Positions 15,951 to 40,645 of a stretch of DNA of 50,566 nucleotides are shown here, in pieces (the stretch's first letter is position 1; the number at the start of each line of letters is the position of its first letter). Origin of the DNA: a virus; the IMG/VR virus record IMGVR_UViG_3300011118_000009, positions 1 to 50,566 of that record. One strand, 5' to 3'. Made by a program: the position numbers and the translations under genes. The notes below the pieces were generated by a model, which did no database searches, was not told where the DNA came from, and was given only the letters and a program-made list of their open reading frames with translations.

Positions 15951-16399
15951 TGCCTGCTCCTATTGCTTATGGTGCTGGTCTTGCTGTTGGTAAGGCTTTG
16001 CCATTCATTTCAAAACACTTGTTGTCTCTTCTTATCGGCGGAGGAATTATTGGGGGCCAGGCCCTTGGGGAAATTGGTCGAAGCGGGGAACGTAAATTGG
16101 CTCGGGGACAAATGGAGTTGGAAGCTACTCTTGCCAAGAGTTCTGCGGAGGCAGGAAAGAAAGCCACTGCGGAGTCTCGTGCTCGGGCCAAAGAATATAC
16201 GGAACAACTTTTGAAGGCTAAAAGAGAAGAACGCAGAGAATCTCGGGATATAGCTGCAATGGAATCTTTCACACAGAGTCAAGATCGACAAATGGCTTTG
16301 ATTTTACAGGCGATACAAGCGATGTCTGCCAAACCAATGGGAGCAGGAACACAGGCTCCCGGTGGGGGTGGCATGCTTGGGTTGATGAGGGGAGCGTAA
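15950..16399 (+). CDS. Small virion protein with N-terminal membrane-like segment and coiled coil
   Basis: A 149-residue protein overlapping the previous stop. Residues 2-40 are hydrophobic and glycine-rich (AYGAGLAVGKALPFISK; LLSLLIGGGIIGGQALGEIG), probably membrane-active. Residues 50-110 are a charged coiled coil. The tail is a Gly/Met-rich linker. Membrane-inserting small proteins of this kind occur in genome-ejection complexes, so a channel role is plausible but not shown. An exact nonamer at 16143 is read S-A-E-A. Confidence 0.5.
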   Translation: MPAPIAYGAGLAVGKALPFISKHLLSLLIGGGIIGGQALGEIGRSGERKLARGQMELEATLAKSSAEAGKKATAESRARAKEYTEQLLKAKREERRESRDIAAMESFTQSQDRQMALILQAIQAMSAKPMGAGTQAPGGGGMLGLMRGA

Positions 16400-16781: not shown

Positions 16782-19700
16782 ATGCCTAAATATGATCCTT
16801 CTACAGACGTGCCCTTTGGGATTGCTGGAGCCGATTTTCCAATTTCTGTGTACGACAGGCCTCAGCTTGCATTCGGCAATCTACTTAAAGGCAATGTAGA
16901 TGCAGCCACCCGTGCTATTTTTTCTCCCCAAACTTTAACTCCTTCGGAAATGAAGACAGTTCGGGACACTCTTTTCCGAGGAAAAAAACCAAATCTAATT
17001 CTTAAAACTATTACAGATATCGCCACTAACCCACTTGTAATCATGGGATTAGCCGTGGGGTTATGGAAATTTCCTCTTGGGACCGCTCAACCACTACTTG
17101 AATTACGTCGTGGACTCATTCCTAAATCGGCAGCTATGGGAAAGATGATGTCTGGTTTACATGGAGCCATGATGAACCTCCGCAGTATTCCCGGGATGTT
17201 TGAGTCATTGCTTGGGGTTACTACAGAGACTACTAAGTTTATGGCTAAGTATGGAGATGATGCCAATGCTATTTTCTTAAAGACTGGCCGACTTTCCCGG
17301 GCGGAAGGTGCATTGGTGTCGGCGAGATTAGATGGGCTCCATAAATCTTCTCATTACATGGTTAAGGCTCTTCGGAATGAACCGGAATGGCTTGCTTTTA
17401 TGGGGGGAAAAGATGTCCCTATTGCATCTAATATACAAGGGGTTATGGATTCTCGGTTAGTGGGACTATCAGATCGACTCCGGGGATGGTATAATGCGAC
17501 GCGTAAGACTGTAAGTAAATCCCCGGAAGTTTTGGGTCGAGTTAGAAAGGCAGTAGAGAAAAAAGGGTTGCAGTTTGGAGACGACGTTGAAGATTATTTT
17601 CCTCGTCACGGTCAGTATAATAAATACTATAAGCGATCCATTCGAGGGACAACCGGAATTCAATATCGTACTTGGTTGCACAAGGAAACCGGAGCGATGG
17701 TTGGGAAAGAACAAATAGCTCGAACAGGTGGGTTATTTGCTAATCTGGACGACATACAGATGCTCGAACAATCCGGGGCAATTAAGCCGGGCTTTTCAAA
17801 AATGGTCAAGTCTATTATGACTCGAAGAAGTCAAGCATCCTCCGCAAAGGCAGGTGAAATTTGGGGAGATATTACACGAATAGGTCTGGACGAATCTCAA
17901 GCCCGGGTTGAATTTGTACGTAGAATGAGAGAATATTATACAAAGGGGGGCGGAAAACATCTCGACTTTGTTCGTCGGCTTGGTAATCCAAAGATGGCAG
18001 ACGATACTTTAGATTCAATGGCGGGGGCTTTGCAAGATGCAACATTTAAGGGCGGTGGTAAACTACAGAAAGAACTTTTTGAAATTGGAAGAGTTCTCGC
18101 GGAGCCAGCCCAATATACTTTGAATCCTTGGGACGCGACGGGTAGATATTTGAGTTCTATGGCGTCCTCGTATGCCTGGCATGGGACAGGCCTTGGTGAC
18201 AAAATTATGACCATTGCCAAGAAACCAGGGGTCTATAAAAATGCTCCCTATCTCGAATCATACCTATATGATGATATAATTCCCCATGTGCGGGGGTTGA
18301 AATCATATCAAGAACTCCAACGATCCATTTCTTTCTCTTCGGGGAAAGAGAAAATCTATAACTGGTTACAACAAACTCCAATAGCAGATCAGGTCTTGGG
18401 TAAAAAAGGAAAAGATTGGCTCCTGAAATATTTTGGGGATACATCTAAATCCCTATCTGCGGAGGGGGTCGGATCAAAAATAGCTCATTCTTTTTATCTG
18501 TCTACTCTTGGAACTAATATTTCTCCGGCCTCTAAGAACCTGCTACAAAACTTTCTTACCACGATGAATACTCCAGGAATTGGACCACAAGGTATTTATA
18601 GGGGATTGATGGGGGTTCGAGGGGGCGAAGGTGCATTGGGAAAGATGCAAGAATATCTCCGCATGATTACAACGGGGACAGGAACAAAAGCAGCTTTCCG
18701 CAAGGCATTCCCAGAATATATAGATGATATGGGCGATGCTTCTCAAATCGTAGAGTCAATGCTTGCCGGGGATGTCGCAAAAGAAGGAATAGCGGGGAAA
18801 TTTCTCGGGGTAAAAGGGAAATGGGAACAAATTAAGACGGCTATGCTCATGCCTTTTAGTACCTCGGAAGGGTTTAATAGGATAGTGGGGTATTATGCGG
18901 GGAGAAATTCACACCTGTTCCATAATGCAAGGAAACTTGCGGGGGCGTCCAATGCAGTAAAGAGTCAAATATTCAAAGAGGCGGGGCAAGTAGGTCAATC
19001 TCTTACAATGACCTCGCACTTTACTGGTGGTCCGTTGGGGATACCAAAAGCCCTAATCAATACATGGGCTCCTTGGCGACAGTTTATGCACTTTCCCACG
19101 CGATTTGCTGGTTTCTTACATGGTTCTCTTCGCATGGGGCCAGACCCCTCAAAGTTGGATTGGGGGACGATAGGGAGAACAGTCGCTGGTTCTACCGCCG
19201 CTTATGTTGGAGCGAGAAACTTGGCGGGGGTAGATATTTCATCAGGACTTATGACAGGAGCTTTGCCTGTTCCAACCTATGAAGGGGCTCCATTCTATCC
19301 CTGGCCGCTTGTACCACCGGCCTTGAGCGTAGCTGGTACGGCAGTTAAGTCTTTATTAACGGGGTCAACTGAGGGATTGGAGGGGGCAGCTTCTTTATTG
19401 GTCCCAGGCGGCGTTGCTGCACGTAAGGCATACCGTAGTTTGGCCCCTAAGTATGCCGATTATAAGAATAGAACGCCGGATGGCCGCATCCCACTCTATA
19501 ATGATTCTCATGCCTTGATAGGTACGATGTCGCCTATGCAGCTAACCCTTCGGGCGTTGGGCTTAAAATCATCTGGTTTAGCAGCGGAACAAGGGGCTGC
19601 TAAGTGGCTCTTGGCACAGCGAGAGAAACTCAGGGCCTATCGTCGGGATTATCTACAGGCTCTCACAGAGAACGACAACCGAAAAGCCGAAGACATACAA

Positions 19701-19941: not shown

Positions 19942-19970
19942 TTGACTTTCCTCCGCAGAAGTGGTATAAT
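19942..19970 (+). promoter_or_regulatory. Sigma70 promoter TTGACT-17-TATAAT with nonamer in the spacer
   Basis: TTGACT at 19942-19947 and TATAAT at 19965-19970, spacing 17. The spacer holds an exact CCTCCGCAG (19950-19958), 2 bases after -35 and 6 bases before -10. The promoter at 31924 has the motif at the same place. It precedes the replication gene run starting at 20014. Confidence 0.85.
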
Positions 19971-20013
19971 ATACACATAATCGAACCCAAAATATATTTG
20001 AAAGGAAAAGAAA

Positions 20014-20373
20014 ATGAAAGAACGAATTGAAATTACAGTTAAAGTAAATGGGGAAGTAGTGCCGCTATCCTCTCTCTCGGATGAGGCCATTAGCAATATC
20101 AAACAGCAAGAAAGACAGCAACTGGAGAAGAACGTTCCGGTATTCAGTAAACTCTCGAATCGTCTCGTTGTAAAATTGACTCCTACCGTAATAAAAACAA
20201 TGCGAGAATTAATAAGGCAACTGGACAGTGAGAACTACTACCCAGAAAAGGGAAGTTATATGTCTTTTGAGCCGAATGGGCTTGTTGGTACATATTATCT
20301 GGGAAAAACGCAAGCAGATGTTTTGTCGTCCTATTCCGGTGGATATCTGGAAGCTATTTTTCCGGGAAAATAA
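20014..20373 (+). CDS. Hypothetical protein, first gene of the polymerase operon
   Basis: A 119-residue protein with GAAAGGAAAAG before ATG 20014, about 40 bases after the promoter. It begins with a beta strand (IEITVKVNGEVVPLS) and ends with VGTYYLGKTQADVLSSYSGG. No family is recognised. Its last base is the A of the next gene's ATG, so it is coupled to DNA polymerase and may act with it. Confidence 0.5.
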   Translation: MKERIEITVKVNGEVVPLSSLSDEAISNIKQQERQQLEKNVPVFSKLSNRLVVKLTPTVIKTMRELIRQLDSENYYPEKGSYMSFEPNGLVGTYYLGKTQADVLSSYSGGYLEAIFPGK

Positions 20374-22982
20374 TGATTGAGTTTGAATCACATCCTGATT
20401 GTACGGAATGCCCACTGCACGAGATGGCAGTGCATCCGGGGATAGCTACTCGTCCGTTGTATGATAATCAAACCATTCAAAAGGATAGGGCTATTCTATT
20501 TGTTGGACAACATCCAGGGGGACTTGAAGACCGGGCTAACAAAGGATGGATTGGATACGGTGGGGGACTTCTTCGTACAATAATAGAGACCACTGGCTTG
20601 CAGAAGTTGTGTGATGTATTTCTATCGAATGCCTGTCGGTGTAAACCTCCGCAGGATGGTAGTATATCTCAAAGTCAAATTAGGATATGCCGAACTTTGT
20701 TGCAAATTGATGTTGAAGACTTACAGGCTCATTACAAAGAAGTTATTTTGGTAGGGCTGGGGGCAAAAGCAGCTTACAGTATTGCCAAGCTTAGTTCACT
20801 CAATAAAGCCCTGAAACAACAGGGAAGCATGGCAACTATGTTTACTATGCAGGGAGGTCCCAATGTCCATCCTCGAATGTTCTTTACTTATCACCCCGCC
20901 ATGCTCCATCCAATGAGACAACCTGCGAAAGTACGAGCAGTTGAATCACACTTTACACTTCTGAGGAGGTATCTCAAAGGAGAATTTATTCCAAATGATA
21001 TGGTAATAAACCCGGAGTTAGGAATACCTGTTCCAATTTGGTTGCCAACTCATGTTGCTTGTGATATTGAGACCTACGGAATTCTGGCGGGGAATGAACA
21101 GACTGTTTTCAATCCCATAAAGTCGAAGTATGTGGACGGATTTGATTTTGATGAACAGGTTGTAACTGTCAACTTTACTTGGCGTAGTTTGTCAAATGAA
21201 TTACGAACCGCTGTTTACGTTGTCAAAGACAGAAGACACATGCGGATTATTAGGGAGTGGTTTAAGCAATTGAGTCGGGGATATCATGTTCTTGTTGGTC
21301 AGAATATCAAATTTGATTTGGAGTTCCTTACTTGCTCAGATAAGGAACTCCGATATTGGATAGACCCCCGCAGGTTACGTGTTGATGATACAATGATTCT
21401 CAGTTTCTTGTTATATGAACAACAACCAGAAAAAGGATTAAAGGAACTGGCAATCTTACATGGAATCTCCGACTATGGAAAAGAAAAAGTGACCGGAAAA
21501 TCTGGGAATGCTAAGTCCCCTTGGGATAAGAACTTACATCACTATAATTGTTTGGATGGTGCAACAACGCTCGTTCTTTATTTTGAACTTCTGCGGAGGA
21601 TTGCCAAGAAGTATGGTGACAAGTCGGAGAAGTTATCGAAAGTTTGTGCTGATGTTCGCAACATGATTATTTGGGACACATTCGATTTGGATTTGAATGG
21701 TAGTTCTTTGGATATAAAAAAAGTAACTAAGTTTCATAATAAGCAAAAAAATTTATGCACTCGCATCTTTGATAGGGCAGAAAAAAAAGGATTAAAACTT
21801 GGGGGGAAAGGATCGGACAAACCATTGCGGGAATTTATGTTGGGGTGTTTAGATGAGGCTGGGTTATTGGATGACCCTCAAGTAGAGTGGACAAAGAAAA
21901 TGGGAGGCGTTTCTATTGGAGTTGAAAATGTAAAGCTTCTAAAGAAAAATTCTTTTGCAACTTCCAAGAAAAACTTAATTGCTCTTTTTCAGGGATATAA
22001 AGAACATAGTAAACTTGTTACTACATATACAAAACCACTTCTTGAAGATTCTCGGAAGGGAATTGTTACACGCTCTGACAATATTGGAATGGTCTATCCG
22101 TCTTGGTATCCAATCCCGAGTTATTTCGAGCGAGGAAAAAAAGAAGCCGAGACCAAGGGGCAAATACAGGGACGGTTTAGTTGTACGAAACCTGCACGAT
22201 TAACTGAACCCCATTCAATTAGGGATTGTTCTATATCACGGTGGAAAGGTGGGACGATTGCAGAATGGGATGTGTCCCAAGACCACCTGCGGATGGCAGC
22301 TATATTATCCGGCGATCCTCTTTTAATGGATGCCTATTTGAATCCAAAGGGAAGTATCCATACACAAACTGCTCTTACCTTATTTCCAGACGCGGATCCA
22401 ACTGATCCCGGGTGGAAAAAATCAGATATGTATAAATTGGGGAAGACCCTTAATTTTTTGGTTATATTCAAAGGGGGACCGGGAGCATTTCAATCGACTG
22501 CGTTAAGCGATGCTGAAGTAGAAGTTCCAATTAAATTCTGTGCGGAAGCAATTAACACATGGTATGAAAAACATCCTGTGTATAAACAATGGCAGGATTC
22601 AATGATTGACTTAGCAGCCGAGCAGGGATACCTTGTTTTACCTACGGGATGGAGTCGGACATTTGCATTAGGTCCGCAGGGAGTAGCAAATTATACCAAC
22701 GAGATTTGTAATTTCCTCCATCAATGTCCGTGTAGTCAAATAACACAATCCGCACAGTATCAGATAATGTGTACACTGCGGAGGTATCATTTGAAAACAG
22801 TCATTCCCTTGCAGATATATGATGCGGTATTTGCCGACATTTATCCCGGGGAAGAAAAAAATGTGGATGAAATCTATGGAGAAGCCATGACCCATCCCCC
22901 ATTGTTGAAAGTATTTGAAGAGTGGACGGGGCGATCAGTTCCATGGCTCTGGGAAAAGAAAACTTATGATACTATTTCCTAA
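20373..22982 (+). CDS. Uracil-DNA glycosylase / family A DNA polymerase fusion
   Basis: An 869-residue protein. Residues 1-195 resemble a family 4-type UDG: Cys10, Cys13, Cys90 and Cys106 are spaced like an iron-sulphur ligand set, GQHPG (45-49) is motif A and FTYHPA (172-177) carries His174. Residues 225-420 form a 3'-5' exonuclease with Asp231/Glu233 (ACDIETYG), Asn311/Asp315 (GQNIKFD) and Tyr391/Asp395. Residues 560-869 are the PolA polymerase: motif A EWDVSQDHLR with Asp633, motif B around Lys691 (GKTLNFLVIFKGG), motif C QIYDAVFAD with Asp817. Two usual residues differ: the arginine four before the motif B lysine is Tyr687, and the motif C histidine is Tyr816. It likely replicates the genome; the UDG part may check or limit uracil. 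Exact nonamers at 20646, 21591 and 22776. Confidence 0.88.
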   Translation: MIEFESHPDCTECPLHEMAVHPGIATRPLYDNQTIQKDRAILFVGQHPGGLEDRANKGWIGYGGGLLRTIIETTGLQKLCDVFLSNACRCKPPQDGSISQSQIRICRTLLQIDVEDLQAHYKEVILVGLGAKAAYSIAKLSSLNKALKQQGSMATMFTMQGGPNVHPRMFFTYHPAMLHPMRQPAKVRAVESHFTLLRRYLKGEFIPNDMVINPELGIPVPIWLPTHVACDIETYGILAGNEQTVFNPIKSKYVDGFDFDEQVVTVNFTWRSLSNELRTAVYVVKDRRHMRIIREWFKQLSRGYHVLVGQNIKFDLEFLTCSDKELRYWIDPRRLRVDDTMILSFLLYEQQPEKGLKELAILHGISDYGKEKVTGKSGNAKSPWDKNLHHYNCLDGATTLVLYFELLRRIAKKYGDKSEKLSKVCADVRNMIIWDTFDLDLNGSSLDIKKVTKFHNKQKNLCTRIFDRAEKKGLKLGGKGSDKPLREFMLGCLDEAGLLDDPQVEWTKKMGGVSIGVENVKLLKKNSFATSKKNLIALFQGYKEHSKLVTTYTKPLLEDSRKGIVTRSDNIGMVYPSWYPIPSYFERGKKEAETKGQIQGRFSCTKPARLTEPHSIRDCSISRWKGGTIAEWDVSQDHLRMAAILSGDPLLMDAYLNPKGSIHTQTALTLFPDADPTDPGWKKSDMYKLGKTLNFLVIFKGGPGAFQSTALSDAEVEVPIKFCAEAINTWYEKHPVYKQWQDSMIDLAAEQGYLVLPTGWSRTFALGPQGVANYTNEICNFLHQCPCSQITQSAQYQIMCTLRRYHLKTVIPLQIYDAVFADIYPGEEKNVDEIYGEAMTHPPLLKVFEEWTGRSVPWLWEKKTYDTIS

Positions 22983-23562
22983 TAAAAAATACCAAATAAT
23001 AGTAGTTGATCCCCCTTGGCCGATAAAGAAAATAACACGCAAGAAACGTCCAAATCAAACAACTATGGATTATCCAACAATGCCAATAACAGATATTGAA
23101 AAGTTACCGATAGCTAAACTTGCTGAAGAAACCTGTTGGTGTTTTCTATGGACGACACAAAAATTCCTTTTTAATAGTAAGTCAATTTTGGAGGGTTGGG
23201 GCTTTTCCCACTTACTTACAATGGTATGGGAAAAAACCTATGGTCGTTCGGCGGGGATGCCCTTATTTGGATTTAGATATAACGCCGAATTTATCCTTGT
23301 TGGGTATAAAACTAAACCTACTCTTTGGCCTAAAAGAAAACTTATACCGGCAGTATTTCAGGCCGAAAATATTAGACATTCTCAAAAACCCGATAGGTTT
23401 TACAGTATGATAGAGGTATTGGGGTCAACTCGTATAGATTTATTTGCAAGAAATAAACGCCAAGGGTGGGATGTTTGGGGAAATGAAGTCGAAGTATCCC
23501 AGCCGAACGTAGAAAGCAAACAGGCTACTATTAACGCCGCATTAAAACGATTGGGGAAATAG
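22966..23562 (+). CDS. MT-A70 family adenine DNA methyltransferase
   Basis: A 198-residue protein. ATG 22966 lies inside the last 17 bases of the polymerase gene, with GGGAAAAG upstream; the longer start at 22915 would need 51 extra overlapping bases. VDPPWPIKK near residue 15 is the DPPW catalytic motif of MT-A70-type N6-adenine methyltransferases, and RHSQKPDRFYSMIEVLG near 150 is the typical C-terminal phrase. It probably protects phage DNA by adenine methylation. No cognate restriction enzyme lies nearby. It contains no exact nonamer, unlike the polymerase gene. Confidence 0.85.
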   Translation: MILFPNKKYQIIVVDPPWPIKKITRKKRPNQTTMDYPTMPITDIEKLPIAKLAEETCWCFLWTTQKFLFNSKSILEGWGFSHLLTMVWEKTYGRSAGMPLFGFRYNAEFILVGYKTKPTLWPKRKLIPAVFQAENIRHSQKPDRFYSMIEVLGSTRIDLFARNKRQGWDVWGNEVEVSQPNVESKQATINAALKRLGK

Positions 23563-23566
23563 AAAT

Positions 23567-23866
23567 ATGTCGATTAAAGTAACCAGGGTTGTAAATATTC
23601 GTACTTCGGAGTTCGATGTTTTCATTGGTCGTCCAAGTCGATGGGGCAACCCCTTCTGGATAGGGCCTTATAGGTCCAGAGATGCTGCAATTAAAGACCA
23701 CATGGATTGGTTAGATGGAAAATTAAAATCCACCGCAGGGCGGGAACCGCCTACAAAAGCAGAAATTAAAAAACATTTAACTGGCAAGAGACTTGGTTGC
23801 TATTGTAAACCCCAAGCTTGTCACGGGGATAATTACGTTGCAATATGTAGGGGGAAACATGGCTAA
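23567..23866 (+). CDS. DUF4326-type protein
   Basis: A 99-residue protein. FDVFIGRPSRWGNPFWIG near residues 17-35 and LTGKRLGCYCKPQACHGDNYV near the end match the DUF4326 pattern (IGRxSxWGNPF ... LxCxCxPxxCHGD). This family is widespread in phages. Its function is unknown, although the conserved Cys/His set suggests a metal- or nucleotide-related role. The end overlaps the next gene by 8 bases. Confidence 0.8.
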   Translation: MSIKVTRVVNIRTSEFDVFIGRPSRWGNPFWIGPYRSRDAAIKDHMDWLDGKLKSTAGREPPTKAEIKKHLTGKRLGCYCKPQACHGDNYVAICRGKHG

Positions 23867-24455
23867 AATACGAAAGACGGACATCTATCGTAGGTATAAG
23901 ATACCCACAGAGATAACAATACAGATTGATACTCGCGAGCAGTTTCCTATGTTGTTTCCAGACATGATAAAGATTGCCAATCCGGAACAGTCTTATTTAT
24001 TCCTGCCCATTCAAGTTGTGTCCCAACGAATCGGACTTGATTGCGGAGACTATAGGCTTAAAGAATATCCAACGGATTGTATTATTGAACGTAAAGCTGC
24101 CCAGCTTGAGATATACAAGAACCTAAATGAATCTCATGATCGTATCAGGCAAGCAAAAGCATTCCGTAAATTATCAGGGGCTTGTAAATATCCACTCTTA
24201 TTAATCGAAGCCTCCGCAGGGGAGTTGCTTTCTCCGAGTCCACGTATAAAGAACCCAGAGATTGTCCCACATCGCTTAGCTCTTGCCATTGCTAAATACA
24301 AATTCAATGTGATGTTTATTCCCTGGAAGAGTCGAAGTTCCATGACACGTAGGAAGGTTGGCACACTGTTGATCCATTTAATGTTGGGGTACTCACTTCA
24401 ATCTACTTTTGATGTACCACCAGTCTTGTTAGATAACCCTGCGGAGGAGGGATGA
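23859..24455 (+). CDS. ERCC4/XPF-type nuclease
   Basis: A 198-residue protein. ATG 23859 has AGGGGGA upstream and overlaps the previous gene by 8 bases, so it is preferred to the earlier in-frame start at 23793. QIDTREQ (residues 22-28), LDCGDYRLK (61-68) and IIERKA (75-80) make up the ERCC4 catalytic signature (D...GDY...ERK) of structure-specific or flap endonucleases. It likely processes branched replication or recombination DNA. Exact nonamers at 24211 (A-S-A-G) and 24439 (P-A-E-E). Confidence 0.85.
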   Translation: MAKIRKTDIYRRYKIPTEITIQIDTREQFPMLFPDMIKIANPEQSYLFLPIQVVSQRIGLDCGDYRLKEYPTDCIIERKAAQLEIYKNLNESHDRIRQAKAFRKLSGACKYPLLLIEASAGELLSPSPRIKNPEIVPHRLALAIAKYKFNVMFIPWKSRSSMTRRKVGTLLIHLMLGYSLQSTFDVPPVLLDNPAEEG

Positions 24456-24530
24456 TTTTTTAATGTGCACTGGGGTTTTGTTTGATAAATAGGAAACTAA
24501 AATATATTTCAAGAAAATAACTTTTTAGGC

Positions 24531-24558
24531 TTGACTATATGTGTAAATTTGGTATAAT
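24531..24558 (+). promoter_or_regulatory. Sigma70-like promoter TTGACT-16-TATAAT
   Basis: TTGACT at 24531-24536 and TATAAT at 24553-24558, spacing 16, with the preceding 75 bases A/T-rich. Transcription would start near 24565, at the foot of a long hairpin, with the next gene at 24711. Confidence 0.8.
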
Positions 24559-24568
24559 AAAGGTTGAT

Positions 24569-24692
24569 AGGGATTGAACGTTAAACCCAAACTAAAACAT
24601 AATATAAAGAACGTATTCGATCCCTTATTTTTAGACCTCCGCAGGATAGGGAGTCGATGATACAGTAGTACATTGGCTCCCTTCCATTTTTT
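24569..24692 (+). ncRNA. Hairpin-rich leader or small RNA with two terminator-like stems
   Basis: First stem: AGGGATTGAACGTT (24569-24582) pairs with AACG plus TTCGATCCCT (24610-24625), leaving a 2-base bulge; it is followed by TTATTTTTA. Second stem: AGGGAGTC (24648-24655) pairs with GGCTCCCT (24675-24682, one G-U) and is followed by T6 at 24687-24692. An exact CCTCCGCAG (24636) lies between the stems. The RNA may be an attenuated leader for the genes at 24711 onward or a short non-coding RNA of about 65 or 130 bases. Confidence 0.5.
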
Positions 24693-24710
24693 CTTTGAAA
24701 GGAAAGAAGA

Positions 24711-24911
24711 ATGAGCAAGAACCCCAAAGTGAAAAAATCAAGATACAAATCTCCGCCTGTGATCTTCGTCCCCGACGATACCTACGTAGATGATACAGGT
24801 CACTTAATCGGCACAAACGGTATATTCGTTGTAAGCCCAAAACACTACCTGGACATCCGGGCCGCACTCAAGTCATCACAGGAGGCCAAACATGATAAAT
24901 CCCAATCGTGA
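24711..24911 (+). CDS. Small hypothetical protein
   Basis: A 66-residue protein with GAAAGGAAAG before ATG 24711, downstream of the hairpin leader. It has a basic N-terminus (KNPKVKKSRYKSPP) and then VIFVPDDTYVDDTGHLIG. No family is recognised. Its end overlaps the next gene by 20 bases. Confidence 0.5.
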   Translation: MSKNPKVKKSRYKSPPVIFVPDDTYVDDTGHLIGTNGIFVVSPKHYLDIRAALKSSQEAKHDKSQS

Positions 24912-25188
24912 CGCGAGCGAGGAAGTTCTACAGCAACACAAACAAGAATCCTACGAGCGGTTCCGGGTTCAGTTCGCTATGGCGGTCGAACAGAAGCTGA
25001 TTGACTTTGAAATGACGTGGGGTGATTTAGCTACTTGCATTAAAGGTCAAAAAACAGACGGTATTTTCATAAAAACACGCATTAAAAATGGGAGTTTATC
25101 TGCGGAGGGGATGAACGATATAGCCCATGTCTTTAGCTGTGAACCATATATTATACTCAGACCTCGACTTCCTTGGGTACAAACTTAA
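24892..25188 (+). CDS. Putative XRE/Cro-like regulator
   Basis: A 98-residue protein with AGGAGG upstream of ATG 24892. Residues 38-90 have the layout of a helix-turn-helix domain of Cro/XRE type: MTWGDLATCIKG, then FIKTRIKNGSLSAEGMNDIA and a short C-terminal helix. The fold assignment is by pattern only. If correct, this is a phage repressor or activator and a candidate to bind the dispersed nonamer or the TTCTA-N5-TAGAA dyad. An exact nonamer (25100) lies inside the domain, read as S-A-E-G. Confidence 0.5.
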   Translation: MINPNRDASEEVLQQHKQESYERFRVQFAMAVEQKLIDFEMTWGDLATCIKGQKTDGIFIKTRIKNGSLSAEGMNDIAHVFSCEPYIILRPRLPWVQT

Positions 25189-25196
25189 TTTTTCCC

Positions 25197-25225
25197 TTGA
25201 CTTTGGTTTACCAATATGATATAAT
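25197..25225 (+). promoter_or_regulatory. Sigma70 promoter TTGACT-17-TATAAT
   Basis: TTGACT at 25197-25202 and TATAAT at 25220-25225, spacing 17. Start expected near 25232, with ATG 25249 close behind. It serves the nuclease/lipoprotein/Sak4/SSB run. There is no nonamer in this spacer. Confidence 0.85.
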
Positions 25226-25248
25226 ATACACATATTAAAAAGAAGATA

Positions 25249-26265
25249 ATGAACATTAATGAAATCCAACCAAGGCCATTTGAATGTCACCAGTCCAGTA
25301 TTGCAACTGCACATGGTTGTGAACGATGTTTCTTTTTTAAGGAGCGGTGGGGCGTCGTACTGCGAGGTGTCAAGGTAAAAACAGGGGCATCTCTTGGCAA
25401 ACTCTACCATAGATTTCAACACTTGGGTCCGGGACACGAGCAGGAAGTTCGAGCCGAGGTCCAGGGAATGCAAACAGACTTGATGGCCCGAGCGGACAAA
25501 GGCGAGGATTTGGATGGCGAGATGGTTCGGTTTGCAACTCTACTCACGACGCTTTACAACAAAGCCGAAGTGATGGCCCACTTATTCTGGGAACGCTACC
25601 CAACCCCGGATTATTTGAAAACAATCGGAACTGAAATCAAACATTCCATGACAATTCAAAACGGTCCTTTAGATGGAATGGTGTTGACTGGAACCATCGA
25701 CAAATTAACCCAAGACATTCGTAATGGAAATATTTGGGATCGGGACCATAAGAGTACCGGGCGTTCGCTGGATACTATCTTTGCTGGATTTCCTTGGTCA
25801 ACTCAAGCCAGAATCTACCGAATCTTGGCCGAGGATTGGATAGGCCAACACGAACAATCTAAAGTTGTGGGCTTTATTCTGGATGGGATATTAACACCGG
25901 GGATTAAACTCTGCAAGAAAGATGTCAAAAATGCAAAAGATTGGAATTGTTCCGAATCAGAAGCATACCTCCGCAGGGTTAAAGAGTGGTATGCTGCAAC
26001 TGGAACGGCCTCGATTCGATCCGAAGCGATGATGTACAATGAACCACTGTACTCTCGCGAGTTGCTGCATGAGTTGATGTTCATGAAAGAGCTCAGCAGT
26101 CGAGCCAATGATCCTAATGAATATAATCGGGACCCGTCGAGATTTCATTGTTTCCTCTACGATTCTCAGTGCGTTTATTATGACCTGTGTTCGTCGCCGA
26201 AAGTCAAGTGGCCGGAATTATTTGAAAACAAATATAAAATCAAATCTGCGGAGGAATCCAAATGA
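25249..26265 (+). CDS. PD-(D/E)XK nuclease, RecB/Cas4-like
   Basis: A 338-residue protein. GTIDKL (Asp151), WDRDHKST (Asp166 and Lys168) and STQARIY (Gln186, Tyr190) form the D...DxK...QxxxY signature of RecB/Cas4-type exonucleases. Cys24 and Cys27 (HGCERC) at the N-terminus and two or more cysteines at the C-terminus (CFLYDSQCVYYDLC) could hold an iron-sulphur cluster, as in Cas4 and AddB relatives. It probably resects DNA ends for recombination with the Sak4-like and SSB-like proteins downstream. Exact nonamers at 25968 (Y-L-R-R) and 26246 (S-A-E-E). Confidence 0.8.
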   Translation: MNINEIQPRPFECHQSSIATAHGCERCFFFKERWGVVLRGVKVKTGASLGKLYHRFQHLGPGHEQEVRAEVQGMQTDLMARADKGEDLDGEMVRFATLLTTLYNKAEVMAHLFWERYPTPDYLKTIGTEIKHSMTIQNGPLDGMVLTGTIDKLTQDIRNGNIWDRDHKSTGRSLDTIFAGFPWSTQARIYRILAEDWIGQHEQSKVVGFILDGILTPGIKLCKKDVKNAKDWNCSESEAYLRRVKEWYAATGTASIRSEAMMYNEPLYSRELLHELMFMKELSSRANDPNEYNRDPSRFHCFLYDSQCVYYDLCSSPKVKWPELFENKYKIKSAEESK

Positions 26266-26360
26266 AAAAATTGATTTGTAGTATACTTACTCTGCGGAGA
26301 CATTGGTTCAAACATTATCCCGGAGAGAAACGATATGTGCGGTGTCGCCTGTGTGGGTAG
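26262..26360 (+). CDS. Tiny basic protein with CxxC end
   Basis: A 32-residue frame overlapping the nuclease stop (ATGA). It is basic and ends RYVRCRLCG, a zinc-ribbon-like half knuckle. Such mini-proteins occur between phage replication genes, but this one is weakly supported. Confidence 0.35.
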   Translation: MKKLICSILTLRRHWFKHYPGEKRYVRCRLCG

Positions 26361-26411
26361 ACGCCGAAAAGTATGTGGAAACAAAGAGAAAAGATTTTGA
26401 GGAGAAAAGTA

Positions 26412-27035
26412 ATGAGTGCGTACAAAACAATAATAATAACTTGGATCATAGCTGCAATAATTATAGCCTTTTTATGTTTATTCTGCGGAGGTTGTCAGGA
26501 TTCCTTTGGGTTGCGGTTTTCGCCGACTCAGGAGCAGAAACAATCTGCGGAGTTGACCAATCAGTTGGCCCGAAAAGTAAATGTGGATGGCACTGATCCC
26601 CTAAGTCCGGCGAGTAGAAAGCTCGTAGACGGCACAGCGACTTCCCTTGCTTATACCGGTAGGCCGCAGGTAGCTCCAAATCTCGATGAGTTTGATACGA
26701 TTAACAATCAGGCACAGGATGATGCGGTAAAACGACCCGATGTTGCAGGGACGATGGATTCTGCTTTGGAGATTGGACTCGGCATTGCGGCTTTGATGGG
26801 TGGGGCTGGGGGGATTAAGTTGGCCCAGGGAATAAAGAAGATTCATGGGAAGGCCAAAGCATTTAATGAGATCGTGTCCCAAAATGATTTGTACAAACGA
26901 ATGGCCTCCGCAGAGGAAGCCGTTAGATTCAAAAAAGCTTTCGCCGGGCAAACGGAAACCACGAGAAAATTCGTAGCAGAAGCTCGTGTCATAGATAAAA
27001 CCAGAATGGTAACTATTCCGAAGGAGAACGTATAA
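26412..27035 (+). CDS. Putative lipoprotein or membrane-anchored protein
   Basis: A 207-residue protein. ATG 26412 has GAGGAGAAAAG just upstream, so it is preferred to the longer in-frame start at 26373. Residues 6-25 are a hydrophobic signal (TIIITWIIAAIIIAFLCLFC) followed by GGC, which resembles a lipobox (LFCGGC). The middle has a Gly-rich hydrophobic stretch (EIGLGIAALMGGAGGIKLAQ), and the rest is charged. It could be an envelope protein; a lysis or exclusion role is possible, but it sits between a nuclease and the Sak4-like gene. Exact nonamers at 26483 and 26905. Confidence 0.5.
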   Translation: MSAYKTIIITWIIAAIIIAFLCLFCGGCQDSFGLRFSPTQEQKQSAELTNQLARKVNVDGTDPLSPASRKLVDGTATSLAYTGRPQVAPNLDEFDTINNQAQDDAVKRPDVAGTMDSALEIGLGIAALMGGAGGIKLAQGIKKIHGKAKAFNEIVSQNDLYKRMASAEEAVRFKKAFAGQTETTRKFVAEARVIDKTRMVTIPKENV

Positions 27036-27952
27036 TGGCCGAGCAACCAAAAACCACACCTGCGGAGGGAAATGTTACGATGGCTACGGCTCCAAATAAC
27101 GTCCCTGATATTCCAGCGGATTGGAAGAATCTGGCGGTTGCGTCCGGTTATAAGCCGAAGAAAGCGGAGGATTTGAACTTATGGATAGTTGGCCCGAGTG
27201 GAGAGGGAAAGACTACTTTTGAATCCAGTATTCCCAATCAACTCATCTTGGATTACGACAATGGAGCGGCAGGAATCCCTGGAACTCGTTCCAATCGAGT
27301 TTATGTCCAAAATTATGAACATTATATGCAAATTATGGACAAGCTCATTGTGGAGGGATTAGCGGGAAAGGCTCATTGGCATCGTATCTCAACAGATACC
27401 GTTGATGAATGGGTCGGGATGATTAAGAACCAGTTGCAGAAAGAGAAAGGAGTCGAGGACATTACAGAGTTCGGGAGTCAGGGACATGGATGGGGAATGA
27501 TTCGAGAGCGGTGTTGGTCGAAGCTACGAGAGTTGGAGAACGCCGGTTATGTCTGGTCTTGTGTGGGACATTTAACTACGAAGACAGAGACGAACCCATC
27601 GACTCACAAAGAGCGGACTGTTATTCGGGAATCTGTATTTCCATCTTTTGCCAAACAGATTACAACCCGAAGTGATTTCAAGTTGACGATTTATTGTGTC
27701 AATAAGGAGACTGAGAAAACAAAAAAACGGACGCTTCCGAGTGGTCAGGTCATTGAAGTTCCCGATGGAGTAGAACAGAAAGCAACCTATTACGTGGATT
27801 CTCTGACCACTGCGGAGAGAGATGGGAAGAGTAGGGGGGCTCTTACGATGGAGCGTAAATTTACCATTCCTCCTGTTAACGCCTGGGATTTATTTGTCGA
27901 GAAGTATAATACGGCGATAGAGCAAGCTAAAAAACAATACGGGCAATTGTGA
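27035..27952 (+). CDS. Sak4/RecA-like ATPase (AAA_24 type)
   Basis: A 305-residue protein. VGPSGEGKTTF (residues 52-62) is a Walker A motif and LILDYDNGAAG (70-80) is the typical following strand of Sak4/AAA_24 single-strand annealing/RecA-like ATPases. STDTVDEWVGMI near residue 125 resembles their Walker B. This family works with a phage SSB in recombination and replication, and an SSB-like gene follows. It lies in one operon with the RecB-type nuclease. Exact nonamer at 27060 (P-A-E-G). Confidence 0.8.
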   Translation: MAEQPKTTPAEGNVTMATAPNNVPDIPADWKNLAVASGYKPKKAEDLNLWIVGPSGEGKTTFESSIPNQLILDYDNGAAGIPGTRSNRVYVQNYEHYMQIMDKLIVEGLAGKAHWHRISTDTVDEWVGMIKNQLQKEKGVEDITEFGSQGHGWGMIRERCWSKLRELENAGYVWSCVGHLTTKTETNPSTHKERTVIRESVFPSFAKQITTRSDFKLTIYCVNKETEKTKKRTLPSGQVIEVPDGVEQKATYYVDSLTTAERDGKSRGALTMERKFTIPPVNAWDLFVEKYNTAIEQAKKQYGQL

Positions 27953-28023
27953 AGAAACGTAGTTGGTCTCATCTTTGGGATTAACAAAGAAACAATATCA
28001 ATAATTTTTTGGAGAAAAGACAC

Positions 28024-28593
28024 ATGAGTGACATTAACTTTGAGCAAATGCTCGCACAATTCAATCAGGATTACCGCGAGGCCGAAGTATTTAATGACAG
28101 GATGCCGGACGATGGGAAGTATATCATTTCCCTGATTAAGTTGGATACTGGGACGGCAAAAGAAGGCGGAGCTCCCTGGATGAAGCTACGCGGTCGGATT
28201 GAAGACCCGCAGGATGCAACGTGGGGCGGCTTTGAATTCCCCGTTGGATTCTACTCTGCAAAGGCATTCGGCATTCTCAAGGGAGCGGTTAACGTATTGG
28301 CCGGAAAATCCGTCAATGATTTGGCCGAGGCTTATGAAGTCCTCAAAGCATCTCTTGGCAAGATCATCGAGGGAGAAGTCAAGACAACAACCTCCGCAAA
28401 GAACGGTAAAGACTATACAAATTGCTACATCCTGAAAGTGATCGACGAGGTGGCCTCCGCAGATGCCCAACAAGCCGAAGCTCCTGCCCAAGACCCAGCC
28501 ATAGTGGACCCGGCGACCGACGTTAATGATATTCCATTTACCGGCGACGGCGATGCTTCTGTTGGCGATACGAATCCCACAGAAGTTGGGTAA
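28024..28593 (+). CDS. SSB-like protein (DUF669 type)
   Basis: A 189-residue protein. ATG 28024 follows TTGGAG. Residues 1-130 match the layout of DUF669-type phage proteins beside Sak4 (FEQMLAQFNQDYREAEVF; GGAPWMKLRGRIEDPQ; GFYSAKAFGILKGAVNVLAG). The C-terminus is acidic and contains VNDIPF, like SSB tails that recruit partners. It probably coats single-stranded DNA and loads the ATPase encoded upstream. A 71-base gap separates the two genes without a clear promoter. Exact nonamer at 28454 (A-S-A-D). Confidence 0.65.
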   Translation: MSDINFEQMLAQFNQDYREAEVFNDRMPDDGKYIISLIKLDTGTAKEGGAPWMKLRGRIEDPQDATWGGFEFPVGFYSAKAFGILKGAVNVLAGKSVNDLAEAYEVLKASLGKIIEGEVKTTTSAKNGKDYTNCYILKVIDEVASADAQQAEAPAQDPAIVDPATDVNDIPFTGDGDASVGDTNPTEVG

Positions 28594-28605
28594 CCGGAAC
28601 AGCCA

Positions 28606-29133
28606 GTGTCGGGGCGGCGGTGTAAGGTACACCAAATATCATGCAATCAGATGTTCGCTGCCTGCCCCAATACTGGTTTTGTTGAGGAAGAAAAAATAGA
28701 ACCAATTAAGATTCCAATTTCGATATGTCCTCATTCCTCCGCAGGGAAGATTCGTGGGTGGTATGTGTTGGCTAAGCGATTGTTTCGTGGGGACGATCCT
28801 ATTCTGTTTAAGCATCAGTTTTTGGGGTTCAATGGGAACTTGATAGTTTCAGTCCAGCAAGCCGCGATTAGGTCGTTATTTCAAATGGCTACGAAATATC
28901 CGAAGTTGGAAGACAGAGATATTACCTGGCTGGGGAAAGTTTCCCTGTTTCGATTGAAGGGAGGATTTAAGGTATACATTCCTGGGGAGTATTTGGAGGT
29001 TGAAAACCCAACTCGGGTTGAAACCGTTGGTATTTTTAGATGTCATACCGCGTATAATCGAAAATTATTTTATTATCTGGAAATCCCCGCTATTACTGCG
29101 GAGGTACTTTTGGGTAGAAAGGCGTTAAAATGA
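28606..29133 (+). CDS. Hypothetical protein, start uncertain
   Basis: Up to 175 residues. The frame opens at GTG 28606 with a poor ribosome site; ATG 28651 is an alternative, leaving about 160 residues. Sequence is mixed alpha/beta (ITWLGKVSLFRLKGGFKVYI; FYYLEIPAITAEVLLG) with several cysteines at the start (CNQMFAACPNTG). No family is recognised. Exact nonamers at 28736 (S-S-A-G) and 29096 (T-A-E-V). Confidence 0.5.
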   Translation: MSGRRCKVHQISCNQMFAACPNTGFVEEEKIEPIKIPISICPHSSAGKIRGWYVLAKRLFRGDDPILFKHQFLGFNGNLIVSVQQAAIRSLFQMATKYPKLEDRDITWLGKVSLFRLKGGFKVYIPGEYLEVENPTRVETVGIFRCHTAYNRKLFYYLEIPAITAEVLLGRKALK

Positions 29134-29173
29134 AGAAACAAGGTTTAGTGATACATGATGGGAGAGTGATAGA

Positions 29174-29821
29174 ATGACAGCTAAAGTAAGACATTCAGAA
29201 ATGGATTCAAACAATAGTTTATGGGTAGTAGACAATGATCATGCAGATTATTATATTCAACCAGACGGAAGTGAAGGACCCTATTTTGTATATGATACCG
29301 AAGCCGAAGCTCAGGCAGCACTTGATTTGTATTTGGAGAAGCAACCACAACAGTGCCAAGTAACGCCAGGTGTTGTAGAGACAATGCGTGAGTTCAAAGG
29401 TGGTGCTACGCGGGATACGCTTCGGGGCAAACTCAGTTATGTCAAGGCTTTGTCTCCAATAGTTTTACAACGATACGTTCAATATCTCAATGTCCATAGA
29501 TTGCAGCCTGATGGTTCTATGCGTGATTTCGATAACTGGAAAAAAGGCATACCGAAAGACGTTTATTTTGATGGGCTTGGGCGTCACTTTTTAGCTGCGT
29601 GGTTGTTGGCACAGGATTTTCCGGCAGAGGATAATCATGGCCCAGTTACACTCGAAGATTCTTTGGCGGCAGTTATCTTTAATGCAAGTGGTTGGCTCCA
29701 CGAGCTTGTTAAGGAAAGAATAAATTACCAAGCAGCCATAGACCACGAGATGGGAACTGAAACCAAGCCAAGCTACGGTGGTAAGATCGACCGCACTAAA
29801 CTAACTCCAGGAGGTTACTAA
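29174..29821 (+). CDS. dATP/dGTP diphosphohydrolase-like protein (MazZ-related family)
   Basis: A 215-residue protein with GGGAGAG upstream. Residues 75-178 match the phage dATP/dGTP diphosphohydrolase N-terminal pattern (GGATRDTLRGKLSYVK; FDNWKKGIPKDVYFDGLGRH; ITLEDS-type helix), an all-alpha MazG-related fold whose S-2L member is MazZ. MazZ-like enzymes hydrolyse dATP/dGTP to monophosphates and help make diaminopurine nucleotides in Z-genome phages. No PurZ gene is seen here, so I infer only nucleotide-pool editing. Overlaps the next gene by one base and leads an operon with an HD hydrolase. Confidence 0.65.
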   Translation: MTAKVRHSEMDSNNSLWVVDNDHADYYIQPDGSEGPYFVYDTEAEAQAALDLYLEKQPQQCQVTPGVVETMREFKGGATRDTLRGKLSYVKALSPIVLQRYVQYLNVHRLQPDGSMRDFDNWKKGIPKDVYFDGLGRHFLAAWLLAQDFPAEDNHGPVTLEDSLAAVIFNASGWLHELVKERINYQAAIDHEMGTETKPSYGGKIDRTKLTPGGY

Positions 29822-30090
29822 TGTGGCAGGATAACGTAAACGGAATGTTTGAATTTCTTAGTGCGTTCTTTGTCCTCTTGCATTGTGTAAAAATGTATAA
29901 GGATAAGAAGATCAGGGGCGTAAGCCTGTTGGCTGCTATTTATTTTACTGCTTGGAGCTACTGGAATTTGCATTACTATCCGCACCTTGAACAGTGGTGG
30001 AGTTTCGGTGGAGGGGCAACTACTACTATGGCCCACACTATCTGGTTTTCTATGATCGTTTACTATATTTGGAAGGAAAAACATGAATAA
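29821..30090 (+). CDS. Small multi-spanning membrane protein
   Basis: An 89-residue protein with GGAGG before ATG 29821. Three or four hydrophobic segments (FLSAFFVLLHCV; GVSLLAAIYFTAWSYW; TIWFSMIVYYIW) separated by short charged loops. The pattern MWQDNVNGMFEF...HLEQWWSF occurs in small phage membrane proteins of unknown function. It overlaps both neighbours, so it is translated with the nucleotide genes. Confidence 0.55.
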   Translation: MWQDNVNGMFEFLSAFFVLLHCVKMYKDKKIRGVSLLAAIYFTAWSYWNLHYYPHLEQWWSFGGGATTTMAHTIWFSMIVYYIWKEKHE

Positions 30091-30658
30091 TAAAATAGTG
30101 ACCTACACGGGAAAGGTTTTCGACCTACTTGATCCGAGACCGGAGACAGTGTGTATTGAAGATATTGCACACGCTCTGGCTCATATCTGTAGGTATACGG
30201 GGCATGTGCGGAAGTTTTATAGCGTGGCCCAACATTGTGTGTTAATTGCCCAGGCTGATCTACCGGGGGGAGCTTTACAGAGATTACTCCACGATGCCGC
30301 GGAGGCCTATATTGGAGATATGGCAAGTCCTTGGAAACAATTACTAAAGGTATTTGAATCACGTAATTGTTCAACATTGGGCAGCGGATTTCCGATATGG
30401 GTCAATGAATATGAACAAAAAATCCAAGACGTGATTGGAATAGCTTTAGATATTGACCTTTCTTTTTCTGCGGAGGTCAAAGAGGCAGATAATAGAATGT
30501 TTTCCACAGAAATACGGGATTTAATGCCACCTTCTAAGGAGTTTAAGTATTGGAAAGATAATCTGAAACCCCTGGATATTACGATAATTCCCCAGGACAC
30601 TGAACTCGCTGAGGCAGCTTTTCTAAACGAATATTGGAGGTTGAAAAAAAATGAGTAG
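30083..30658 (+). CDS. HD-domain nucleotide hydrolase (YfbR/DatZ-like)
   Basis: A 191-residue protein with AAGGAAAAAC before ATG 30083. It carries IAHALAHICRYTGHVRKFYS, then AQHCV with His51, LLHDAAEAYIGD with His70/Asp71 and a later Asp (KEADNRM). This is the metal site of HD-fold phosphohydrolases common in phages. Relatives include 5'-deoxynucleotidases and DatZ, which removes dATP triphosphate in Z-genome phages. Coupled by 8-base overlaps to the membrane protein and the metallophosphoesterase. Substrate unknown. Exact nonamer at 30468 (S-A-E-V). Confidence 0.75.
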   Translation: MNNKIVTYTGKVFDLLDPRPETVCIEDIAHALAHICRYTGHVRKFYSVAQHCVLIAQADLPGGALQRLLHDAAEAYIGDMASPWKQLLKVFESRNCSTLGSGFPIWVNEYEQKIQDVIGIALDIDLSFSAEVKEADNRMFSTEIRDLMPPSKEFKYWKDNLKPLDITIIPQDTELAEAAFLNEYWRLKKNE

Positions 30659-31346
30659 AGTTTTAACCGTAGGTGATTTACATATTCCCTGGGAACGTAA
30701 GGGCTACTTTCAATTCTGCTGTGACCTATATGAAGCCTGGGATTGTAATACCGTGGTATTTATTGGAGATGTAGTTGACTCTCACGCGGTATCTTTCCAT
30801 AAGAAACATCCTGATATGCCGGGGGCATTGCAGGAGTATGAACAAGCTAAGAAACAGGTCAAACGCTGGTATAAGCGATTTCCAAATGCTGTAGTGACTA
30901 TAGGAAACCACGACGAGCGGATTATTCGTGTGGCCAGAGACGCCGGTATCCCGGAAGTTTATCTAAAAAGCTATGAGGTGAATTGGGGAACATCCGGTTG
31001 GAAATGGAAACAAGATCATATCATAGACGGCGTGTATTATTATCACGGTACAGGTCAAGGCGGGGAATACCCGGCATCTAACGCTGTGCGTAAAATGCTT
31101 ATGTCGTGTGTTCTCGGACACAACCACACAGCTTCCGGGATAAAATATTTTGTCAATCCTGCCAATAGGTTCTTTGCATGTGATGTGGGATGCGGAATAG
31201 ATGATAAGAGAATGGCCTTCGCCTATGCCATTAATAATAAACGGCGGAGCGTTCTTAGTGCCGCAGTAATTATCGACGGCGTACCTTATGTCGAGCCGAT
31301 GAAGTGTGGCCGCGGCGAAAAATACCATGATTCGGGGTTCAAATAA
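30651..31346 (+). CDS. Metallophosphoesterase (calcineurin-like)
   Basis: A 231-residue protein with TTGGAGG before ATG 30651, overlapping the HD gene by 8 bases. VGDLHIP (Asp9/His11), FIGDVVDSH (38-45), TIGNHDERI (83-91) and a later GHNH form the full metal-binding set of calcineurin-like phosphoesterases. In phages these may cut nucleic acid or nucleotide phosphoesters. Operon position suggests nucleotide metabolism. It overlaps the next small gene by one base. Confidence 0.85.
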   Translation: MSRVLTVGDLHIPWERKGYFQFCCDLYEAWDCNTVVFIGDVVDSHAVSFHKKHPDMPGALQEYEQAKKQVKRWYKRFPNAVVTIGNHDERIIRVARDAGIPEVYLKSYEVNWGTSGWKWKQDHIIDGVYYYHGTGQGGEYPASNAVRKMLMSCVLGHNHTASGIKYFVNPANRFFACDVGCGIDDKRMAFAYAINNKRRSVLSAAVIIDGVPYVEPMKCGRGEKYHDSGFK

Positions 31347-31519
31347 TGAGTGTAAAGGGAACGTGGCCGAGGCCATTTACGACAACACGGGAAGAACGGG
31401 ACCTCCGCAAAGACCTTATGTGTGGCGAGATCACGCGGGCGGAGTACAACAAACAATATGAACGGCTCAAGAACCAGGGGCTCATTCAAAGAAATGGACG
31501 AGTTATGAAAAAGGATTAG
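31346..31519 (+). CDS. Small basic protein
   Basis: A 57-residue frame beginning at the overlapped ATG of the metallophosphoesterase stop. It is charged and helical (TTTREERDLRKDLMCGEIT; EYNKQYERLKNQGLIQRNG). No family is recognised. A one-base variant of the nonamer (CCTCCGCAA, 31402) lies inside. Confidence 0.45.
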   Translation: MSVKGTWPRPFTTTREERDLRKDLMCGEITRAEYNKQYERLKNQGLIQRNGRVMKKD

Positions 31520-31526
31520 GAATAAT

Positions 31527-31703
31527 ATGGATACACACTTTCTCAAAGAGAAGATACAAGAGTTGAAAGAGCAGCTGGCAATCATAGAAGAGGAGAATAA
31601 ATCCCTTCGAGATTACATTCACGATCTGGAGGCCAATCAAACCACGAGCAAAATTTCACGCAGTCTAACTGAAATTCCTTCCGAATTTGGTTACGTCCCA
31701 TAA
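31527..31703 (+). CDS. Small coiled-coil protein
   Basis: A 58-residue frame with AGGA before ATG 31527. Residues 3-38 are a heptad-like coiled coil (FLKEKIQELKEQLAIIEEEN). The tail has no known motif. Last gene of the nucleotide operon. Confidence 0.45.
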   Translation: MDTHFLKEKIQELKEQLAIIEEENKSLRDYIHDLEANQTTSKISRSLTEIPSEFGYVP

Positions 31704-31923
31704 TAGTTAGAACCCGATAGACGCCCGATAACTGCGGAGGTCGGCGGGCTTGGTATTTTCGGACGTAGGGAGGTTGTCATTTGGTTTCTTGTTTTACGGT
31801 GGTTTCCTGTATAGGATATGTTAGGTTTTTGGGAAATTCATTATCCTATTATACCATATTTGCAAGTAAAAAGCAAGTAAAAACCCGACCGGAAAAAATA
31901 TTCAGATTTTTTTTATTTTTCAC
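31704..31923. other. Non-coding stretch with nonamer and 11-bp tandem repeat
   Basis: No gene is seen. An exact CTGCGGAGG lies at 31732. GCAAGTAAAAA occurs twice in tandem (31862-31872 and 31873-31883). A weak minus-strand promoter can be drawn through these repeats (TTGCTT-17-TATAAT, + coordinates about 31851-31879), but with no clear gene downstream I do not call it. Confidence 0.5.
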
Positions 31924-31952
31924 TTGACATACCTCCGCAGATAGTGTATAGT
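31924..31952 (+). promoter_or_regulatory. Sigma70 promoter TTGACA-17-TATAGT with nonamer in the spacer
   Basis: TTGACA at 31924-31929 and TATAGT at 31947-31952, spacing 17. Exact CCTCCGCAG at 31932-31940 begins 2 bases after -35 and ends 6 before -10, exactly as at 19942-19970. It reads towards the small gene at 32034. Confidence 0.85.
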
Positions 31953-32212: not shown

Positions 32213-32260
32213 ACCTCCGCAGGTTTTTATGGATAATTACACTGCGGAGGTATTTTTTTT
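32213..32260 (+). terminator. Intrinsic terminator whose stem is an inverted pair of nonamers
   Basis: ACCTCCGCAG (32213-32222) pairs perfectly with CTGCGGAGGT (32242-32251) across a 19-base loop, and T8 follows at 32253-32260. Both arms are exact copies of the dispersed nonamer plus one flanking pair. Confidence 0.85.
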
Positions 32261-34925: not shown

Positions 34926-34969
34926 AGCTTACAAGGCCGTCCTGTACCTCCGCAGAGTAGGTATAGGAT

Positions 34970-35966: not shown

Positions 35967-35975
35967 CTGCGGAGG
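35967..35975 (+). promoter_or_regulatory. Nonamer acting as ribosome binding site
   Basis: CTGCGGAGG ends 5 bases before ATG 35981; GGAGG within it is the Shine-Dalgarno core at a usable spacing. A second case is at 40332-40340. Confidence 0.65.
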
Positions 35976-36849: not shown

Positions 36850-36985
36850 CCTCCGCAGAATTGGATCAATACCGTCATGAATTGACAGTTATAGTCCGAT
36901 AACCATAGTCTGATTCACCAAGTGTCCATTCGCTAAGTCCAATAATCACCACGCCTTAATCGGTATTCCTTCCCCAGTTATCCAC

Positions 36986-40622: not shown

Positions 40623-40645
40623 CCTCCGCAGAGGAAGGAATTAAA

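Follow-up and report, generated by a model that had tools for sequence, protein, structure and literature searches.

What does a nonamer do that occupies the same position in two promoters of a virus? The window, which is the whole 50,566-nucleotide stretch of IMG/VR virus record IMGVR_UViG_3300011118_000009, contains two promoters with 17-nt spacers, in each of which CCTCCGCAG begins 2 nt after the -35 box and ends 6 nt before the -10 box. A sequence-only reading of this DNA had described the placement, taken the nonamer for a possible operator and likened it to the dispersed stoperators of mycobacteriophages. Direct reading of the two promoters confirmed the placement, and the promoters near 24531, 25197 and 32282 were indeed without the nonamer.

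19942..19970, plus: promoter TTGACT-17-TATAAT (TTGACT-tt-CCTCCGCAG-aagtgg-TATAAT), nonamer in the spacer, upstream of gene 20014 and the uracil-DNA glycosylase (UDG)-PolA gene
19950..19958, plus: CCTCCGCAG in the promoter spacer
31924..31952, plus: promoter TTGACA-17-TATAGT (TTGACA-ta-CCTCCGCAG-atagtg-TATAGT), nonamer in the spacer
31932..31940, plus: CCTCCGCAG in the promoter spacer

The analysis revealed that these two promoter copies are a small part of a genome-wide marking in a family of uncultivated bacterial viruses, and that CCTCCGCAG is not mainly a promoter element. Our preferred reading, which we would call tentative rather than probable, is that CCTCCGCAG, which selection maintains, is a genome-wide recognition sequence, or watermark, read by a protein that the host most likely supplies or specifies.

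The window contains 57 exact copies of CCTCCGCAG (25 on the plus strand and 32 on the minus strand), compared with 0.21 ± 0.41 copies (maximum 1) in dinucleotide shuffles of the window. With up to one mismatch, 89 matches were found against 6.7 expected, and as 57 of them were exact and 32 one-off, CCTCCGCAG is a sharp word. A control with its letters reversed gave 0 copies. In the three bases 3' of the nonamer, C was nearly absent, with no fixed extended consensus. The word is non-palindromic, its complement CTGCGGAGG being a different word, which sets it apart from HIP1-type palindromic octamers; the copies are dispersed across the whole window with random-like spacing, not clustered at one origin as iterons are. 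By hand-chosen genes, which cover 88% of the window, 43 copies lie in genes and 14 between them, a split that is approximate (about 41 versus 16 in the script listing for hand-chosen genes, 45 versus 12 by mechanical gene calls). The copies outside the two promoters are as follows.

1810..1818, minus: nonamer site
2580..2588, plus: nonamer site
2934..2942, plus: nonamer site
4251..4259, minus: nonamer site
5878..5886, minus: nonamer site
7129..7137, plus: nonamer site
7243..7251, minus: nonamer site
11313..11321, plus: nonamer site, sheath-like gene
12119..12127, plus: nonamer site
12615..12623, minus: nonamer site
13257..13265, minus: nonamer site
15056..15064, plus: nonamer site
15499..15507, minus: nonamer site
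16143..16151, minus: nonamer site
17177..17185, plus: nonamer site
18457..18465, minus: nonamer site
20646..20654, plus: nonamer site, UDG-PolA gene
21591..21599, minus: nonamer site
22776..22784, minus: nonamer site
24211..24219, plus: nonamer site
24439..24447, minus: nonamer site
24636..24644, plus: nonamer site, intergenic
25100..25108, minus: nonamer site
25968..25976, plus: nonamer site
26246..26254, minus: nonamer site
26483..26491, minus: nonamer site
26905..26913, plus: nonamer site
27060..27068, minus: nonamer site
28454..28462, plus: nonamer site
28736..28744, plus: nonamer site
29096..29104, minus: nonamer site
30468..30476, minus: nonamer site
31732..31740, minus: nonamer site, intergenic
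32214..32222, plus: inverted nonamer pair, left arm, terminator-like hairpin
32242..32250, minus: inverted nonamer pair, right arm, then a T run
34947..34955, plus: nonamer site, intergenic
35967..35975, minus: nonamer whose complement gives GGAGG as Shine-Dalgarno sequence, 5 nt ahead of the gene 35981 start
36850..36858, plus: nonamer site, intergenic
36986..36994, minus: nonamer site, intergenic, first of a close direct pair
37015..37023, minus: nonamer site, intergenic, second of the close direct pair
37174..37182, minus: nonamer site
39135..39143, minus: nonamer site
40332..40340, minus: nonamer site
40623..40631, plus: nonamer site, intergenic
41890..41898, plus: nonamer site
42749..42757, plus: nonamer site
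42825..42833, minus: nonamer site
42903..42911, minus: nonamer site
43939..43947, minus: nonamer site, terminase gene, same position occupied in relative G001
46027..46035, minus: nonamer site, intergenic
46295..46303, plus: nonamer site
46943..46951, minus: nonamer site
48397..48405, plus: nonamer site
48578..48586, plus: nonamer site
48986..48994, minus: nonamer site

Relatives of the window were collected in two ways. When viral contigs were scanned for an inverted CCTCCGCAG pair, contigs with 0.6-1.0 copies per kb emerged, and those compared by protein share 9-36 proteins with each other and with the window at about 39-67% mean identity, G004, G005 and G011 excepted. Sampling independent of the motif used a terminase profile made from an alignment, which did find relatives, whereas a search with the single window terminase protein gave no match. 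The results showed that CCTCCGCAG came first among 9-mers in most loci whose terminase identity was at least 53%, over a GC content of 38-55%; the exceptions were mainly short fragments (0-2 copies), together with L237 and L238, which have few copies, and L243, which has none and carries another word. Loci with terminase identity of 46% or less held 0-3 copies. Longer relatives have 23-43 copies. The full records examined of distant relatives carry iterated, asymmetric dialect words of their own, with about 16-37 dispersed copies each: GCCCCGCAG in G021, GGGACCACC in G023, AGGGTCCTT in G024, CTGCCGCCC in G025, CCCGACCCG in G026 and CAGTGGGGG in G027. The top 9-mer scored 20-140 in most word carriers, compared with about 8-16 in unrelated viral and cultured-phage contigs. 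Most branches of the family have a different word, but distant loci such as L251, L258, L259, L262, L264 and L270 gave no clear word in the stretch analysed, so the trait cannot be extended to all branches. Searches of cultured phages with sheath, portal and a distant terminase gave no match. As a separate observation, one 8-kb bacterial GTDB contig among L066-L145 reached 56.5 for its top 9-mer, a score in the range of the phages.

Retention of in-gene sites was assessed on the aligned codons of relatives, counting only positions at which the word is compatible with the amino acids of the relative. Relative to the window, CCTCCGCAG was retained at 11/14 positions in G003, 13/15 in G008, 12/14 in G019, 7/7 in G010, 6/7 in G009, 6/8 in G022 and 2/5 in G006 (overall range 40-100%), where codon usage would predict about 0.1-0.25 per comparison. 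Under the same amino-acid condition, other 9-mers were identical in 6-18% of cases, and GC-rich 9-mers in 5-15%. Selection on the DNA sequence therefore keeps most in-gene sites, its action appearing weakest in G006. A functionless origin of the word in codon usage, mutation bias or repeat expansion is contradicted by this retention, by copies in all frames and between genes, and by the empty reversed-letter control; the bias of in-gene frames to S/T/P-A-E and S-A-E/G codons, which speaks for such an origin, is as expected for a word put where proteins tolerate one. We regard this explanation as very improbable.

To define strong intergenic promoters, we required TTGAC, a spacer of 16-18 nt and a near-consensus -10 box, and applied this to 26 records of the clade, among which are partial or overlapping contigs. 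The nonamer lay in the 17-nt spacer of 9/72 such promoters, compared with 0.65 expected from intergenic site density; the independent events are fewer than nine, because several are probably orthologous. Six copies were forward and three reversed, and in the relatives concerned (G003, G007, G008, G019, L213, L216 and L228) the nonamer always started 1-2 nt after the -35 box. Looser rules added two further G003 promoters. Clade promoters also show TG before the -10 box, which limits the room for a 9-mer. An operator role, as first proposed, is thus reasonable at these promoters, although promoters contain only 2 of the 57 window copies. The expected phase to the boxes was borne out in part: the copy stays beside -35, but 2 nt separate them in the window and 1 nt in several relatives, and the copy is reversed in three promoters, so a single fixed phase is not needed. 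None of the promoters found in G006, G009, G010 and G022 has the nonamer, and in other dialects we found one promoter, in G021, with its word in the spacer and none otherwise. The promoter placement is real but restricted to one subclade.

A phage operator or silencer network would explain this placement: a phage DNA-binding protein on dispersed sites would block RNA polymerase beside the -35 box and roadblock or compact the remainder, as P1 C1 or L5 repressors do. It would also suit the close pairs, as opposite-orientation neighbours at most 250 bp apart were arranged CCTCCGCAG...CTGCGGAGG 37 times and the other way round 10 times; as several records were found via one such pair, the excess free of this selection is lower (about 29 versus 10), and pairs in other dialects are too few for judgement. 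Dialects that track phage phylogeny, 3' flank preferences that differ between phages, and a helix-turn-helix (HTH)-like protein at 24892-25188 conserved in the carriers compared point the same way. However, mechanical gene calls on eight clade records placed 248 of 290 sites (85%) in genes, 117 sense and 131 antisense, and the 42 sites between genes were divided 21/21 by orientation, with no preference relative to transcription. Spacer copies are confined as described above, the same word occurs in an unrelated lineage (see below), and the 24892 protein differs between carriers in the region that is likely to recognise DNA. No integrase, ParA, known repressor or lysogeny genes were seen when 65 proteins were scanned for known families, with 25 of 75 phrogs families listed, although unannotated HTH-like proteins exist. 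Taken together, we consider a silencer network possible but doubtful.

P1 C1 and phiC31 repressor operators are dispersed sites at phage promoters, and are promoter-associated and fewer; the likeness to CCTCCGCAG lies in dispersal and in some promoter sites, and the difference in the small share of copies that promoters hold here. L5-type stoperators of Cluster A mycobacteriophages resemble CCTCCGCAG as short asymmetric sites with tens of copies per phage genome (more than 20 dispersed sites, as in the window and its longer relatives), some in promoters, and with a sequence that diverges along phage phylogeny (PMC6550527, PMC9283540). In L5, the stoperators are located at promoters and in short gaps between genes, with an orientation that follows transcription (PMC9283540, PMC6550527), whereas sites here are mostly within genes and independent of transcription in orientation, no lysogeny genes or repressor were identified in the scan described, and exact words differ strongly between clades. 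The L5-like reading taken from the sequence alone fails on two of the features tested, site location and orientation.

A phage DNA-processing site, serving lagging-strand priming, recombination or packaging and read by a phage enzyme, with the promoter copies incidental, would agree with the mean spacing of about 0.8-1.7 kb on both strands of carriers. The family also encodes PolA, a Sak4-like protein, an SSB-like protein, and ERCC4-type and PD-(D/E)XK nucleases; a single open reading frame (ORF) at 20373-22982 of the window joins a Uracil-DNA glycosylase domain to a family A DNA polymerase. On the other hand, relatives of the window's primase-helicase gene were detectable only in G010 and G022 and, weakly, in G027, and carriers without one keep the word. 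The promoter enrichment would be unexplained, and copy spacing was statistically like random in most records (G006 and G023 were more regular than random). A processing site is therefore an unlikely explanation in our judgement.

The nonamer was also found in an unrelated phage lineage. L055/G004, L445/G005 and G011, which are short contigs recovered through a motif pair, contain 6, 5 and 3 copies of CCTCCGCAG in 6.4-6.9 kb. In G004, the major head protein and the tail genes are of a different kind, and the nearest cultured-phage match of this head protein is Wolbachia phage WO (45%). L444, which came from a profile search made without the motif, carries 2 copies in 2.7 kb; L055, L445 and L444, which have the WO-like major head protein, hold about 0.8 copies per kb. 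Two metagenome prefixes are common to both lineages, 3300031673 (G001, G011) and 3300031539 (L241, G004). Comparison of the window's family with L289, of the WO-like lineage, found no relatives beyond EndoVII-like genes, which are common mobile genes. Unrelated carriers of the CAGTGGGGG dialect were looked for and not found. The same nonamer in an unrelated lineage with another capsid suggests a reader common to both lineages by way of their host, and, on these short contigs, favours a shared, host-linked factor.

If CCTCCGCAG is such a watermark, a sequence-specific DNA-binding or DNA-processing protein would read it about once per kb on both strands. This reader would most likely be supplied or specified by the shared host, like Chi or uptake-type marks, for which the reader is a nuclease, recombinase or import machine; unrelated phages of that host could then converge on one word. 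In the window's subclade, some promoters may use the bound site as an operator. Several results weigh against the watermark. A pure host mark would not predict the enrichment in promoter spacers, and dialects tracking phage phylogeny are also explained by a phage-encoded reader. Within the WO-like lineage, the carriers are short contigs, three of them found via the motif pair; L446 is without the word, and the 21.7 kb of L289 hold only 2 copies. Among about 750 bacterial genomes counted, none exceeded about 0.07 CCTCCGCAG per kb; these were 38 chosen genomes, 398 from the phylum of a Nitrosospira genome, 119 from that of a Bacillota metagenome-assembled genome (MAG), 96 from that of a Paceibacterota MAG and 99 from that of a deltaproteobacterial MAG. 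An inverted-pair scan of genome contigs gave no dense genome among the matches listed. Direct-pair matches, which were without enrichment, were put aside as chance.

Self-marking encoded by the phages is a further, somewhat unlikely possibility. A phage family with contractile tail sheaths would have its own genome-wide address word, with a dialect per branch and a co-evolving phage reader separating own from foreign DNA, and part of the sites would also be operators. If true, such marking could serve in replication or packaging, protect against nucleases or keep out rivals.

The closest architecture is known from bacteria. DNA uptake sequences (DUS/USS) are asymmetric words of 9-12 nt, occurring on the order of once per kb in and between genes, with inverted pairs at terminators. 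In Neisseriaceae and Pasteurellaceae they form dialects between relatives (PMC3630211). CCTCCGCAG is alike in its density of about one copy per kb on both strands, within and between genes, and in its dialects; in the window, the inverted pair at 32214-32250 followed by a T run resembles an intrinsic terminator, but other pairs are mostly without a T run. Unlike uptake sequences, the word is in phages, and none of the bacterial genomes counted has a comparable density. Chi sites of RecBCD/AddAB are asymmetric, G-rich on one strand and host-specified, and can be enriched in phages (PMC3784561). CCTCCGCAG shares the asymmetry, the G-rich strand and the enrichment in phage, whereas its density (about 0.5-1.1 per kb, roughly 100-fold or more over expectation in most carriers) differs from that of Chi in the E. 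coli genome (about 0.2 per kb, about 2.3-fold over expectation; PMC3784561). In-gene selection, including structural genes, and the word switches between clades suggest that some protein reads these phage genomes kilobase by kilobase. Once identified, the reader would reveal either host recognition of permitted DNA with imitation by phages, or phage marking of the own genome; the dialects offer a guide, as reader specificity must shift where the word shifts.

Two proteins of the window were considered as candidate DNA-binding proteins.

24892..25188, plus: candidate DNA-binding protein, 98 aa, HTH/XRE-like by eye
41550..41972, plus: candidate DNA-binding protein, 140 aa, predicted winged helix

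The 98-aa protein is present in the carriers aligned and in G022, its variable, likely recognition region is the middle one, and its predicted structure is mostly helical at moderate confidence. The 140-aa protein has weak matches to BldC and Xis, and a fold search with it gave no match at E 0.001 or better. It occurs in most lineages tested and declines faster than terminase between G022 and G021, as fast as other genes do. It was demoted as reader: carrier G006 is without this protein yet keeps 30 sites, so it is an unlikely reader. A sigma-70 region 4-like HTH protein of 84 aa (35981-36235), whose Shine-Dalgarno sequence is supplied by the nonamer copy at 35967, was rejected as reader, having no detectable relative in other carriers.

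A second word, GTCCGATAA, is present at window positions 36894-37049 and in G001, G003, G008, G009, G010, G019, G020 and G022. Most clade records have 3-10 copies of it, often clustered, and some of the clusters step by 16 nt in the manner of iterons. G006 and G021, in which the 41550 protein is lacking or diverged, do not have this word, whose distribution resembles that of the protein. Another word, GATGCCGCC, occurs 25 times in G001 (L184, L185). One of the 65 scanned proteins matched the EcoO109I restriction endonuclease family (PF14511, E 2e-32), at the L200, L201, L186 or L187 loci (G010 or G003). At 42085-43246 of the window, two ORFs that each have relatives throughout the clade share an overlap of about 260 bases.

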